Source of the DNA: Bacteroides ovatus
Lineage (GTDB): Bacteria; Bacteroidota; Bacteroidia; Bacteroidales; Bacteroidaceae
DNA: 64,000 nt
Direction: 5' to 3'
Assembly: GCF_001314995.1 (NCBI RefSeq)
Contig: NZ_CP012938.1
Span: forward strand, 3,410,001 to 3,474,000
The position numbers and the translations under genes were made by a program. Below are positions 22,651 through 62,260 of the stretch, piece after piece. The notes under the pieces were generated by a model that saw only the letters and a program-made list of their open reading frames with translations, ran no database searches and was not told where the DNA came from. Numbering within the stretch: position 1 is the first letter of the stretch; each line of letters begins with the position of its first letter.

Positions 22651-22742
22651 TCTGACACCCGGGTGTCAAGCATACTGAGACCCGGGTGTCAGACTGCTCA
22701 AGACCCGGGTCTCATACATCACGACACCCGGGTGTCGTACAA
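22651..22742. repeat. Four palindromic units at exact 23-bp spacing
   Basis: Four CCCGGG-centred palindromes have centres at 22660.5, 22683.5, 22706.5 and 22729.5, exactly 23 bp apart. Units 1 and 4 contain GACACCCGGGTGTC, unit 2 GAGACCCGGGTGTC and unit 3 AGACCCGGGTCT. Unit 4 extends to an 18-bp perfect palindrome (22721-22738). The array starts 10 bp after the aminopeptidase P stop codon and ends 46 bp before the next gene. There is no T-run after it. Confidence 0.9.
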
Positions 22743-40871: not shown

Positions 40872-41062
40872 TTACAAAAAAAATAATAGTACCTGCAATT
40901 TTTTGTATAATTGCAACGATCCATACAGTAGTTTCACCGGTTGTTGATGTTCCCGGTCCCGGTTATTCAGTAACATACTACGAGTAGAAAAAAGATAATC
41001 CGATTTTACTTCCTGATTTTCATACAGATTCTTTTCAGCCAACAGGTACAGCAAGTAGTCTG
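40872..41062 (-). pseudogene. Out-of-frame C-terminal part of the 41006-41437 gene
   Basis: In another frame than the gene above it, the stretch GADYLLYLLAEKNLYENQEV and onward to the stop at 40872 reads like protein: balanced composition, amphipathic and no stop for more than 60 codons. It continues the upstream frame exactly if one G is added to the run GGGG at 41066-41063. This supports a one-base deletion, or a sequencing error, in that run. Confidence 0.5.
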
Positions 41063-41437
41063 CCCCAAGACGAGTTCTTTTTCCAACTTCCGCAATCGGT
41101 CACATTGTTTCAACCATTTGATTTGTAAGGTATCATAAAGGATTCCGGCTGCTTTATATCTTGTGATTTCTTTGTCTTGTTTGCCTAAAAGTGATAGGTA
41201 TATTGAACAAAGTTTTGATTTATCTATGCAATATCGTTCCAGTTTTTCGATATACATCAAAGTAGCCCCTCTTTCATTTCGACTCATAAACTCCTGAACA
41301 CTGTCATCACTGATGATGTCGATGCCCGGTCTTTCGTAGTCCACAGTGATTTCTCGCATCTCTATCAAGACCCAGATATATTCTGTCTCGAATCCGTACT
41401 TTGCAGCTGCCTCTTCTATACTAATCCATTGTGCCAT
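41006..41437 (-). CDS. Hypothetical protein, helix-turn-helix-like N-terminus, frameshifted
   Basis: A 143-residue product as read. The N-terminus (MAQWISIEEAAAKYGFETEYIWVLIEMREI) resembles the excisionase/MerR-like helix-turn-helix found in Bacteroides hypothetical proteins; the middle is helical (LEKLERYCIDKSKLCSIYLSLLG). The last 22 residues are unusually cysteine-rich (TTCCTCW) and look like out-of-frame sequence: a single-G change at 41063-41066 would replace them with a longer, more protein-like tail. Function unknown. It probably acts, or once acted, in the cytoplasm. Confidence 0.6.
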   Translation of the reverse strand: MAQWISIEEAAAKYGFETEYIWVLIEMREITVDYERPGIDIISDDSVQEFMSRNERGATLMYIEKLERYCIDKSKLCSIYLSLLGKQDKEITRYKAAGILYDTLQIKWLKQCDRLRKLEKELVLGQTTCCTCWLKRICMKIRK

Positions 41438-42007
41438 AGCGTTTGTTTTTTCATGTGTGATACAAATAAGGGATGAATAATATTTTATTCATGTATATTA
41501 GTACAACGGGCATCCACGCTTTTTGCAGTCCGCCGATTGGCTAGGTTAAAATTGGGGCAATTTATTACTGGCCGAATACAAGAAAGACGTAGATGCTGCT
41601 GTACCATTATCCGATTTCAAGGCTAGCTACACCCTCCAGAGAACAATGATGACAGCAGACACCCACGTCAATCGTTTATATATAACACATCTCTTACGAA
41701 TATGTTGATATACACCGTTCACGTGGAGTATCTACCGTATCATCTCCCTCTGTTTGAATTAGCTATTTCTGAAATCGAGAGATAATACGCTTTTACTCCA
41801 TATAGGAAATAAAAACCGCTTCCTGCCTGTTCCATCACGCTGATGGGCTGAAAGCGTACGGCAAAGATATATGTTTTTTTTGAAACGCAGTCGAAATATG
41901 GAAATAAATACTGGAAGTTATGTATTAAAATGAATCTGACAAAAGACGACTCTACTTCTCATTCTTGATTACTGAAATATCTCTCACAAATAAAAGTTAT
42001 AGCAGTT
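41438..42007. other. Intergenic region with a possible gene remnant
   Basis: No intact gene. A small palindrome (ATGAATAA/TTATTCAT, 41473-41492) lies just upstream of the hypothetical gene. At about 41547-41699 the plus strand is open for 50 codons without a start, with protein-like composition (AEYKKDVDAAVPLSDFKASY), possibly a fragment of a lost gene. An isolated -7 match TATCTTTG lies on the minus strand at 41869-41862. Otherwise I see nothing. Confidence 0.4.
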
Positions 42008-42116
42008 TTTACTCTCACACTCTCACCCATTGGTTCAATCCCTTTATTCATCGGCATTACAGGTGTGGGAGTAAAGGTAAGGGCATGGTGAGGGTAACTT
42101 TTTACCCTCACCATGC
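42008..42116. repeat. Two adjacent hairpins in the aspA 3' region
   Basis: First, TTTACTCTCACAC (42008-42020) pairs with 42063-42075 over 13 bp with one mismatch. Second, 42083-42097 and 42102-42116 form a perfect 15-bp stem with a 4-nt loop. Neither is followed by a clear T-run on the plus strand. The pair lies right before the phased GTTTCA array and may be part of the same structured element. Confidence 0.7.
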
Positions 42117-42163
42117 AACAGGTTTCTCCATACGAAAGTTCCAGTCCAATAGTACGAATTTTA

Positions 42164-42284
42164 GTTTCATATAGTGAAACTAAAAGTTTCTCGGTGTGAA
42201 ACCAATAGTTTCAAGCTTTGAAACAAAGTGTTTCAAACCTATAAACAAAGAGTTTCAAGCGTATGAAACAAATTGAAACTGCCG
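42164..42284. repeat. GTTTCA/TGAAAC array phased at 11 bp
   Basis: Hexamers start at 42164 GTTTCA, 42175 TGAAAC, 42186 GTTTCT, 42197 TGAAAC, 42208 GTTTCA, 42219 TGAAAC, 42230 GTTTCA, 42241 ATAAAC (degenerate), 42252 GTTTCA, 42264 TGAAAC (shifted by 1) and 42274 TGAAAC. The period is 11 bp with strictly alternating orientation over most of the array, so the unit is a 22-bp inverted repeat with 5-bp spacers. The array is downstream of aspA in a gene-free region. Confidence 0.92.
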
Positions 42285-42415
42285 TTAACCAAAAATCAGG
42301 TTACTTATTAATAGGATTAAGAAGTCAAAACAGTCAACCTAAATCCGGACGAGACAATATAATATCCTAAAAGATTAGCAATTATTTCCATATCGAATAA
42401 AAGCAGTACATCATC

Positions 42416-42455
42416 AAAAATCGCCGGAACAGATCAATGATCTGCCCGGCGATTT
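42416..42455 (-). terminator. Intrinsic terminator after aspA
   Basis: AAATCGCCGG (42418-42427) pairs with CCGGCGATTT (42446-42455), with a further inner AGATCA/TGATCT stem; on the minus strand a T-run follows. It lies 37 bp past the aspA stop codon. Confidence 0.87.
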
Positions 42456-42491
42456 CTCATCTTAAACCAATCTCCACTTACTATATATCAA

Positions 42492-43925
42492 TCAACGATT
42501 CGGGTGAATGTCCAACTTCACCGGTTTTATCATATTTTCAGGTTTTAAGATAGTATCCAAGTCTTCTTTGGAAAGAATGTTATGTTCCAAAACAAGTTCA
42601 TAAACTCCCTTCCCGGTTTCCAATGCTTCTTTGGCTATTTTGGTAGAGTTCTTATATCCGATCACCGGATTCAGGGCTGTCACTACTCCAATGCTGTTAT
42701 GCACATCTCTCCGGCATTTTTCTTCATTAGCCGTAATGCCGTCGATGCATAAGGTGCGCAAAGTGTCAAAACCATTCATCAGTAAATCGGCGGACTCGAA
42801 ACAGCATTGTGCCATCACCGGCTCCATTGCATTCAGTTCCATTTGAGCTGCTTCACCGCTCATGGCCACACAAAGGTCATTTCCTATTACCTTGTAGGCC
42901 ACCTGGTTCATCACTTCAGGAATCACCGGATTCACTTTTCCGGGCATGATGGATGAGCCCGGCTGCATTGCCGGCAGATTGATTTCTCCCAATCCACAAC
43001 GCGGACCGGAAGCCAGCAACCGCAAGTCGTTACATATCTTATTCATTTTAACAGCAATACGCCTCATCACTCCCGAATAACCTACCATGCAGGAAGTGTC
43101 CGAAGTAGCTCCCACCAAATCGTCTGCCAGTTTGATATCCAATCCCGTAATCTTGCGCAAAGCGGCAATGCACTTCTCCGCATATTCCGGTTCGGCGGTG
43201 ATTCCTGTTCCGATGGCTGTTGCTCCCATATTGACTGCCAGAAAATCCTGTGCAGCAAAATCAAGGTTCTTTATTTCATGTGACAAAATACTTGCAAAGC
43301 CATTAAAGGTTTGCCCAAGAGTCATCGGTACGGCATCTTCCAATTGGGTACGCCCCATTTTGATGACATGTGCAAACTCATTCGCTTTCTTCCGGAAAGA
43401 CTCGATCAGAACCTCCAAATGCTTAACCAATTTCAAATGAGTATAATACAGTCCAATGTGAATGGCTGTAGGATAAGCATCGTTGGTAGATTGTGAACGG
43501 TTGACGTGATCGTTAGGCGAACAGAATTGATATTCTCCCCGCTGATGCCCCATCAGTTCCAATGCCCGGTTGGCAATCACTTCATTGGCATTCATGTTAG
43601 TGGTCGTACCGGCTCCTCCCTGAATCATATCTACGGGGAACTGCTCGTGATGCTTTCCTTCGAGTATTTCTTTACAGGCTCTCAAGATAGCATCCGCTTG
43701 TTCTTCAGTTAATAAGTCCAGTTCACGGTTGGCAATGGTGGCTCCCATCTTCGTAATGGCCAATGCCTGAATGAATAAAGGATATTCATTCAAATGAAAC
43801 TTGCTGATGCGAAAGTTTTCAATGCCACGGAGTGTCTGTACTCCATAGAGTGCACTTTCCGGCACTTCACGACTACCTATCAGGTCACTCTCTGTACGAG
43901 TTTTTTTTGATAAATTTTGTTCCAT
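42492..43925 (-). CDS. aspA: Aspartate ammonia-lyase
   Basis: Aspartase converts aspartate to fumarate and ammonia in the cytoplasm. The 477-residue protein has the fumarase/aspartase signature GSSIMPGKVNPV (the catalytic-loop serine is in this stretch), and GGAGTTTNMNANEVIANRALE and MGRTQLEDAVPMTLGQ typical of the aspartase subgroup. It is divergent from dcuB-ansB-porin, which supply and export its substrate and product relatives, so it very likely belongs to the same asparagine/aspartate catabolic set. Confidence 0.96.
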   Translation of the reverse strand: MEQNLSKKTRTESDLIGSREVPESALYGVQTLRGIENFRISKFHLNEYPLFIQALAITKMGATIANRELDLLTEEQADAILRACKEILEGKHHEQFPVDMIQGGAGTTTNMNANEVIANRALELMGHQRGEYQFCSPNDHVNRSQSTNDAYPTAIHIGLYYTHLKLVKHLEVLIESFRKKANEFAHVIKMGRTQLEDAVPMTLGQTFNGFASILSHEIKNLDFAAQDFLAVNMGATAIGTGITAEPEYAEKCIAALRKITGLDIKLADDLVGATSDTSCMVGYSGVMRRIAVKMNKICNDLRLLASGPRCGLGEINLPAMQPGSSIMPGKVNPVIPEVMNQVAYKVIGNDLCVAMSGEAAQMELNAMEPVMAQCCFESADLLMNGFDTLRTLCIDGITANEEKCRRDVHNSIGVVTALNPVIGYKNSTKIAKEALETGKGVYELVLEHNILSKEDLDTILKPENMIKPVKLDIHPNR

Positions 43926-61998: not shown

Positions 61999-62260
61999 AT
62001 TGGCTATTAATAGAAAACTTCCTTTCTTTCCTATGCAAAGTTTCTTTCGTCTAATAGAGAAGTTCCTTTTGACTGTTTGCAATCTATAAATGAAAGCTTT
62101 GATTATATAAATGCAAGTTCTGTTTTTATAAACGCAAGTTTCATTTATAAAAACGGAACTTGCATTTATAGTTTGAATCAGGTGAGGAATAAGTTTTCTA
62201 TTAATGAAAAGGAAGTTTATATTTAATGGAAAGGAACTTATCTATTAATAGTTCAGGAAA
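61999..62260. repeat. AT-rich array with 21-22 bp period
   Basis: Units of the type CTATTAATAG / TATAAATGCAAGTTC recur. The AAGTT or AACTT core is at 62016, 62038 and 62060, then 62094, 62115, 62136 and 62157 (exactly 21 bp apart), then 62191, 62213 and 62235 (22 bp apart). Orientation varies. Within it 62106-62130 and 62146-62170 form a 25-bp inverted repeat with one mismatch and a 15-nt loop. The array lies between the divergent VirE-type and M48 genes. Confidence 0.8.

Follow-up and report, generated by a model that had tools for sequence, protein, structure and literature searches.

Arrays of phased GTTTC/GAAAC palindromes in Bacteroides and their association with DUF6078-family genes

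Downstream of an aspA-like gene, the chromosome of Bacteroides ovatus carries a run of short GTTTC and GAAAC boxes at 11-bp steps, and the question raised by this locus is what such an array is and what might read it. The locus lies in a stretch of 64,000 nucleotides (NZ_CP012938.1, forward-strand positions 3,410,001 to 3,474,000), here called the window; G and L numbers are our handles for genomes and loci. Our analysis indicates that the array is probably a dispersed copy of the cognate site array of a DUF6078-family protein (PF19555), and that such arrays may serve as protein-covered boundaries at the 3' ends of genes. Arrays of this kind directly follow most DUF6078 genes, and their half-sites vary together with the protein.

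Structure, dispersal and conservation of the array

Eleven rows, starting at 42164, 42175 and so on to 42274 in 11-bp steps, span 42164-42284. In order, they read GTTTCATATAG, TGAAACTAAAA, GTTTCTCGGTG, TGAAACCAATA, GTTTCAAGCTT, TGAAACAAAGT, GTTTCAAACCT, ATAAACAAAGA (degenerate), GTTTCAAGCGT, ATGAAACAAAT (off register by one) and TGAAACTGCCG. Nine of the eleven are in register, one of these with a single change, and the GTTTC/GAAAC orientation alternates across rows 1-10. This layout, first described in a sequence-only reading of the window, was confirmed by re-reading the rows, by Tandem Repeats Finder (TRF; period 22, 4.4 copies, score 89) and by shuffling: the pattern GTTTC-N7-GAAAC-N5-GTTTC-N7-GAAAC, when up to 3 mismatches are allowed, matches the window three times, always in the array, and matches none of 100 dinucleotide shuffles. 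The repeating unit, GTTTC-N7-GAAAC plus an N5 linker, measures 22 bp, and the array is composed as follows.

42164..42279, no strand: whole array, with a GTTTC or GAAAC box every 11 bp (11 in all), made up of five GTTTC-N7/8-GAAAC units with N5 linkers and an extra TGAAAC
42164..42180: unit 1, GTTTC-N7-GAAAC
42186..42202: unit 2
42208..42224: unit 3
42230..42246: unit 4, with a degenerate right box (ATAAAC)
42252..42269: unit 5, with its boxes N8 apart
42274..42279: the extra TGAAAC box

A clustered regularly interspaced short palindromic repeat (CRISPR) was considered and rejected, as the spacers are 5 and 7 bp where those of CRISPR arrays are unique and about 30 bp long, and the Rfam family CRISPR-DR2 matched only at E 0.84, below its gathering score, no search for cas genes having been made.

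The boundaries of the unit were established from a survey of 99 loci, all selected by pattern matches, in which 96 arrays were found and one local shuffle yielded none. Of 838 steps between boxes, 767 are exactly 11 bp; a step of 12 bp separates GTTTC from a following GAAAC in 48 cases, but in no case GAAAC from a following GTTTC. For the 91 arrays lying clear of the locus ends, the first and last boxes are GTTTC and GAAAC in 61, the reverse in 3, and the same box in 27. The unit is therefore the 17-bp palindrome GTTTC-N7-GAAAC (sometimes N8), joined to the next by the N5 linker. All eight arrays viewed in B. cellulosilyticus are 105 bp long (five units), and all six in one Prevotella are 61 bp (three units).

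Two of the 96 arrays lie inside 94-aa open reading frames (ORFs), a further 19 lack a gene on one side, and the 75 with predicted genes on both sides occupy 48 tandem, 18 convergent and 9 divergent gaps. Divergent gaps are under-used (p = 0.011) relative to all gaps longer than 120 bp in the same loci (120 tandem, 45 convergent, 59 divergent). Within tandem gaps, the array is closer to the stop than to the start in 33 of 48 cases (medians 74 and 190 bp, p = 0.013), and the 66 stop-facing arrays lie at a median of 58 bp from the stop codon. The genes flanking the arrays of the B. ovatus genome (G000) are functionally mixed, as named by eye.

Where the sequence-only reading had a single locus, searches of Bacteroides genomes revealed a dispersed family. 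In the B. ovatus genome, the four-box pattern at up to 3 mismatches gave 46 matches per strand at 19 separate places, and a sequence-only model built from 66 arrays gave 64 matches that resolve into 21 places. Across the genus, the pattern at up to 1 mismatch is present in 37 of 158 genomes, with up to 53 matches each; the reversed control pattern gave no match in the B. ovatus genome or in any of the 158. At family level, 29 of 399 genomes, belonging to 7 of 30 genera, have the pattern, against two genomes for the control, and an order-wide model search found it in 3 of 344 genomes, all of the same genus, an undercount with 15 candidates scored per genome under strict filters. The spacing is kept in relatives and the pattern lies far above its controls, which disposes of the earlier reservation that neither might hold. 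Among named genomes, the exact pattern occurs in at least 119 stretches, and the matches listed (80 stretches) come from Bacteroides, Prevotella, Paraprevotella, Alloprevotella, Mediterranea and Caecibacteroides, from unplaced Bacteroidaceae, Prevotellaceae or Bacteroidales, and from one Spirochaetaceae bin. On a contig of such a bin (L133, CADCQA010000007.1), a DUF6078 gene is accompanied by a GTTTC array, possibly through mis-binning or transfer. A phage origin was set aside after the exact pattern, the only one searched, found no match in a viral collection.

Comparison with B. xylanisolvens XB1A (19 loci) and B. congonensis (17 loci plus L126) gave, by a flank-match reading, an ortholog for 12 of the 21 B. 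ovatus arrays. Copy number, whose variation among relatives the earlier reading had raised as a question, changes by whole 22-bp units. For base-level comparison, 22 pairs were chosen from the flank matches, the less clear ones being left out, and the L078 pair was dropped for an array below threshold. In the remaining 21 pairs, drawn from several species and with some arrays in two pairs, identity amounts to 1024 of 1053 positions (97%) in the 5-bp boxes, 543 of 672 in the N7 loops and 318 of 416 in the N5 linkers (76-81%), and 1802 of 2065 (87%) in the flanks, which include coding DNA. A plain minisatellite, in which 22-bp repeats arise by slippage and no protein takes part, would account for the changes by whole units. 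However, the spacers differ between units while the boxes are kept, the same spacing recurs in 7 of 30 genera, and the arrays are linked to DUF6078 as described below, so that we find this explanation scarcely credible.

The same arrays might instead work as RNA, with tandem GUUUC/GAAAC hairpins in 3' untranslated regions that are bound by protein or shield the message, and the short distance to stop codons noted above would fit such a role. The RNA test used 46 arrays whose orientation was given by a stop no more than 150 bp away. T to C changes, which would break an RNA pair, numbered 18 against 15 A to G changes, which would keep a G.U pair (p = 0.73), and double changes within a unit were seen in 6 of 350 units against 4.8 expected, none of the 6 being complementary. 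Most common loops are present in both orientations, with AGAGCCT (6 to 0) and AAGGCCT (1 to 6), both of Paraprevotella type, skewed. Spacer self-complementarity is weak and mixed, with a z of 3.9 for the outermost N5 pair, -3.1 for the pair after it, and 1.0 to 2.1 for the N7 pairs. The window array also lies past a terminator, and Rfam gave three weak matches over 41400-42600, all below gathering score. With no G.U bias and no complementary double changes, the folding into equivalent hairpins envisaged in the sequence-only reading is unsupported, and an RNA element is very unlikely; the boxes appear, from their pattern of substitution, to behave as independent DNA half-sites and not as RNA stems. 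The companion proposal, that a protein reads GTTTC/GAAAC at helical phase, has good support at the level of sequence from the conserved boxes and freer spacers, the strand symmetry, the independent half-sites and the link to DUF6078, whereas the cooperativity attached to it is retained here as a prediction.

Pairing of arrays with DUF6078 genes

Clustering of the ORFs beside arrays brought out one family that recurs across many lineages, DUF6078. For the candidate reader in the B. ovatus genome, the PF19555 match lies at L066:4142-4603 (E 1.3e-48, 165.4 bits against a curated cut-off of 27). In 15 distinct array-picked loci, the array lies 5-174 bp past the DUF6078 stop in 13 and on the 5' side in 2 (L050, L284). 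AAA-ATPase/PDDEXK genes beside 12 loci were taken as chance neighbours because these are, we presume, multi-copy kinds of gene. Since the first loci had been picked by their arrays, the test was reversed, with DUF6078 genes sought by profile and their 3' DNA then examined. The PF19555 profile matched 125 of 157 genus genomes, with 3 copies in the B. ovatus genome. Of 92 distinct DUF6078 genes, 69 have an array of 22/23-bp period in the 300 bp that follow the stop, against 0 of 100 other genes of the same loci, a control that leaves out every DUF6078 gene (Fisher p = 1.6e-32); in a control with the de-duplicated DUF6078 genes still present, the count was 7 of 102 (L419, L422, L428, L436, L399 twice and L417). 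The 23 DUF6078 genes without a TRF match were counted as misses, several of them having weaker arrays or a hairpin element by eye, and with 20 more loci the 3' array is present in 80 of 112 genes. No such array was found within 300 bp 5' of the DUF6078 domain (0 of 83).

In the phylum, PF19555 occurs in 5 of 395 genomes, and the pairing extends outside the family to G261, from another family of Bacteroidales (one GTTTC and one TGCCA array), and to G1142, from the same class (GTTTCA). In the B. ovatus genome, the DUF6078 gene at G000:C1:260544-260978 (minus strand) is followed, some 30 bp beyond its stop, by a GTTTC array, and on this sequence evidence its product is the likely reader of the GTTTC class there. 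Four cysteines are invariant in 13 diverse DUF6078 members, and a YYR motif is conserved in the C-terminal part. The members have no clear Pfam match beyond their own family (other rows E 0.0074 or weaker), and structure matches are absent or weak.

The half-site class tracks the protein. Labels over 80 DUF6078 genes comprise GTTTC (24), TTGCC (17), TTCTC (9), GTAA (7), GTCGTA (5), TTGCAG (4), GGGAA (3), GTTTT (2), GGTAA (2) and other (7), and the GTCGTA class has a 22-bp repeat without a clean palindrome. On a quick DUF6078 tree with 28 of 77 inner branches open, and with labels taken from hand-made word lists, the nine classes require 17 changes (minimum 9) against a shuffled mean of 50.5, with 0 of 200 shuffles as low. 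The GTTTC class alone needs 10 changes and is thus not one clade. Proteins of higher identity also have more similar array units: the Mantel r is 0.64 over 75 arrays and 0.40 over 46 representatives sharing less than 70% identity, with 0 of 2000 permutations reaching as much. The N-terminal part (0.34) and the part around YYR (0.36) do not differ clearly. The residues before YYR vary by class, the stretch reading SRRTYYRIRKGER with TTGCC, SCERYYYHCRKGER with TTGCAG, GIRRYYQKRKGE with GTAA, GKTLYYRFYREER with GTTTC and GRSMFYRIRNKER with TTCTC. The simplest account of these patterns is that DUF6078 proteins would be the readers of their arrays, each class with its own half-site; on this account the window array would be one of about 21 targets of the GTTTC-class protein of B. 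ovatus.

Presence of the gene-adjacent and the dispersed arrays is linked between genomes as well. Among genomes in which every DUF6078 copy was viewed, entry being set by the copies listed, 9 have both a GTTTC array behind a DUF6078 copy and dispersed arrays (G045, G042, G000, G062, G138, G051, G161, G059, G078), 14 have neither, and 2 and 1 are discordant (p = 1.6e-4), with dispersal scored from the genus scan, the order-wide model search or the family scan, and for most of the 14 from the genus scan alone. The discordant genomes are G169 and G047, with dispersed arrays only, and G115, with a weak adjacent array only; G079 has a weak adjacent array too, and G083, which offered no 3' DNA, was left out. 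The near relative G172, which gave no match in the genus scan, carries two DUF6078 genes, and these belong to other classes. Several points weigh against the reading that these arrays are cognate sites: with the genus scan as the sole measure of dispersal, the counts become 6, 14, 2 and 4 (p = 0.026) and G161, G059 and G078 turn discordant; near-copies among the 80 labelled genes ease the clustering of classes; and the conservation of the boxes is partly ascertained, the arrays having been picked by their boxes.

The aspA locus and its neighbouring repeats

The window array lies in a gene-free region of about 1 kb, as the sequence-only reading had stated, which extends from 41438 to 42491 when ORFs below 70 aa are set aside. 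The features around it are the following.

42492..43925, minus strand: aspA, aspartase/fumarase-like, 477 aa (a name given by eye on reading the translation); in the aspA sense the gene lies upstream of the array
42413..42460, minus strand: hairpin followed by a T run (arms 42413-42427 / 42446-42460), likely the intrinsic terminator of aspA, between aspA and the array
41006..41437, minus strand: 143-aa ORF on the far side of the array from aspA
41984..42116: dispersed repeat of a second kind, containing a perfect hairpin of 15 bp (arms 42083-42097 / 42102-42116)

A hairpin similar to that of aspA was seen by eye at the aspA gene of many relatives. In a comparison of about 410 bp past the aspA stop in 29 relatives, of which G050 and G138 were incomplete and uncounted, the 27 assessable ones comprise B. 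congonensis (G047) with an array, G044 with a different short array, and 25 with none, among them G172, which is 98% identical at aspA. An oxidoreductase-like gene, named by eye, takes the position of the array in many close relatives (window 42285-43925 compared with L359-L387). As gene order beside aspA differs between the genomes with the array (B. ovatus and G047) and the others, the array stands at a synteny break. The 143-aa ORF has no Pfam match at E 0.01; relatives of it adjoin arrays in L330 and L017, but without a pattern like that of DUF6078, and it was rejected as the reader of the array.

The second repeat at 41984-42116 recurs at eight further places in the B. ovatus genome. By eye, its layout is an inverted copy, then a gap (about 45), two or three copies in direct orientation and another inverted copy, which is also the layout of an element directly 3' of CFNNQCPKGEKCLHRL-type DUF6078 genes and of the B. 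ovatus copy at 6132159. Repeats of GGTGATAG type lie about 50-90 bp past several GTTTC arrays (L070, L071, L081, L366), and the hairpin element and a GTTTC array stand in a row 3' of DUF6078 in L405, L408 and L412; the two kinds of repeat thus seem linked. Elsewhere in the window, four GACACCCGGGTGTC-like palindromes with a 23-bp period occupy 22654-22741, 13 bp past the stop of an aminopeptidase-like gene (named by eye), and look like another array class, resembled by the TGACA array of L427, and more tandem repeats of 21-22 bp (TRF scores 70-74) lie at 62085-62249.

Proposed function and comparison with known repeat systems

We infer that DUF6078 proteins bind these arrays. The invariant cysteines probably form a zinc site, the C-terminal part containing YYR may be helix-turn-helix-like, and one dimer would occupy each GTTTC-N7-GAAAC unit. 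As units recur every 22 bp, or two helical turns, the dimers would be aligned on one face of the DNA and could bind cooperatively. Within this binding model, we suggest more tentatively that the bound array serves as a boundary or transcription roadblock behind genes, covering the 3' end of the DUF6078 gene itself as well. The window copy, which lies past the aspA terminator, would then act on read-through or as an insulator and not as the terminator of aspA. Broader still, and possible though on the doubtful side, is a new class of self-labelling DNA-binding system of Bacteroidia, in which every member of the family would have its own phased 22/23-bp array behind its gene, some nine half-site specificities would have arisen, and some lineages would have placed arrays behind many genes as protein-covered 3' boundaries across the genome.

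If these proposals are sound, PF19555 gains a specific and testable job, the sequence-specific recognition of phased palindrome arrays, and one class of intergenic repeats in gut Bacteroides may be explained. The many natural DUF6078-array pairs form a data set for a recognition code, and, should binding prove true, could supply orthogonal DNA-binding parts for Bacteroides genetics. The system might represent a new way of setting transcription boundaries, or a repeat-with-partner type other than that of repetitive extragenic palindromes (REPs) and REP-associated tyrosine transposases (RAYTs). Of the possible functions, a boundary or roadblock ranks first in our view, followed by a REP-like repeat that spreads and, third, by chromosome organisation.

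Noc and MatP sites seed protein filaments or shape the chromosome, and parS/Noc-type sites, bound by ParB-family proteins, are GTTTCA/TGAAAC palindromes. The arrays could in the same way be nucleoid-organising sites, and they are distributed chromosome-wide, with gaps slightly more even than random (coefficient of variation 0.69 vs 0.93; 6% of random sets as low) and with the half-site letters of parS, the consensus of which we take to be GTTTCACGTGAAAC. However, their mean distance from parS, 1548 kb against 1618 kb for a uniform spread, shows no bias, their distribution among species is patchy, and their units have N7 or N8 where parS has N4, so that parS itself was rejected and chromosome organisation appears improbable. 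The arrays further differ from parS in being tandem and in numbering about 21 dispersed loci, parS being separate in the B. ovatus genome. There, an exact parS-like site at 4235969 and one with one mismatch at 4224683 (G000:C1) lie 11 kb apart and likely mark the origin region. A similar comparison can be made with parC of plasmid R1, whose 11-bp repeats are bound by ParR: both are phased, iterated 11-bp sites beside the gene of a binding protein, or candidate binding protein, but the DUF6078 arrays are chromosomal, dispersed and alternating.

A more serious rival to the cognate-site boundary is a REP-like selfish or mobile repeat, in which DUF6078 spreads its own 3' repeat in trans and the dispersed arrays are non-autonomous and of no service to the cell. 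A gene with a cognate repeat, their co-variation and the dispersal match the RAYT/REP pattern as described in the available text of PMC2817692. For 9 of the 21 B. ovatus arrays, neither B. xylanisolvens XB1A nor B. congonensis has an ortholog by the flank-match reading, one of the 27 relatives that could be assessed has the aspA array itself and one more a different short array, copy number shifts by whole 22-bp units, and some copies have common longer ends or lie near transposase-like genes (by eye). Four B. ovatus copies (L068, L075, L077, L083) have common longer flanks of the form ATTGAGCAAGATTAGTAAAGCTATTTCGTAATTAGTTTCAACCC ... TTGAAACTAATCGC and may have moved as one larger unit, and L077 adjoins a transposase-like gene. 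With regard to a miniature inverted-repeat transposable element, which would have terminal inverted repeats and a target-site duplication, four B. ovatus copies were seen by eye to have TAGTTTCAA...TTGAAACTA-like ends, most copies having unique flanks. On the other side, the B. ovatus genome has no Y1 transposase and DUF6078 no clear Pfam match beyond its own family, most copies lack consistent ends or target duplications (by eye), and boxes that stay 97% identical while spacers drift suggest use at fixed sites. Mobility without service is, on balance, a possibility on the unlikely side.

The detailed comparison with REPs, bacterial interspersed mosaic elements (BIMEs) and RAYTs, again within the available text of PMC2817692, shows likeness in the many extragenic palindromes, the alternating arrays, the adjoining cognate gene, the co-variation of repeat class with protein, which is found here too, and the way in which repeat presence follows the gene. 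REPs are described there as keeping complementarity between partner arms (PMC2817692), whereas the 6 double changes in 350 array units include none that is complementary and preserves the palindrome. Where a RAYT gene is delimited by repeats on both sides, DUF6078 arrays are nearly always 3' (69 of 92, against 0 of 83 on the 5' side; 5' GTTTC array in 2 of 15 loci). DUF6078 is not a Y1 transposase, and its half-sites are 5-7 bp at an exact 22/23-bp phase. A RAYT/REPIN system was itself rejected: PF01797, for the Y1 (IS200/IS605-like) transposase, occurs in 35 of 157 genus genomes, and in neither the B. ovatus genome nor G001, which has 51 four-box matches. The DUF6078 arrays fall outside three defining REP/RAYT tests, though working somewhat alike.

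The nearest described repeat that we found in a related organism is BrickBuilt, whose host, Porphyromonas gingivalis, we take to belong to Bacteroidales. In the available description, BrickBuilt consists of intergenic 23-nt tandem repeats at 19 loci in one genome, with strain-variable copy number, and so resembles the DUF6078 arrays in being intergenic, tandem at about 22/23 and variable in copy number (PMC4596501). It is set apart by that same description, as direct repeats inside a miniature inverted-repeat transposable element with leader and tail and with no cognate protein named in the available text (PMC4596501). The earlier statement that no element of this form is described in Bacteroides held up in the literature searched, which included few subscription papers and preprints, and in which DUF6078 is not named. 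No repeat or protein family tested here holds the pairing of DUF6078 with its arrays, which could therefore be new, although on a stricter view it could be classed as a variant among repeats that have a partner protein.
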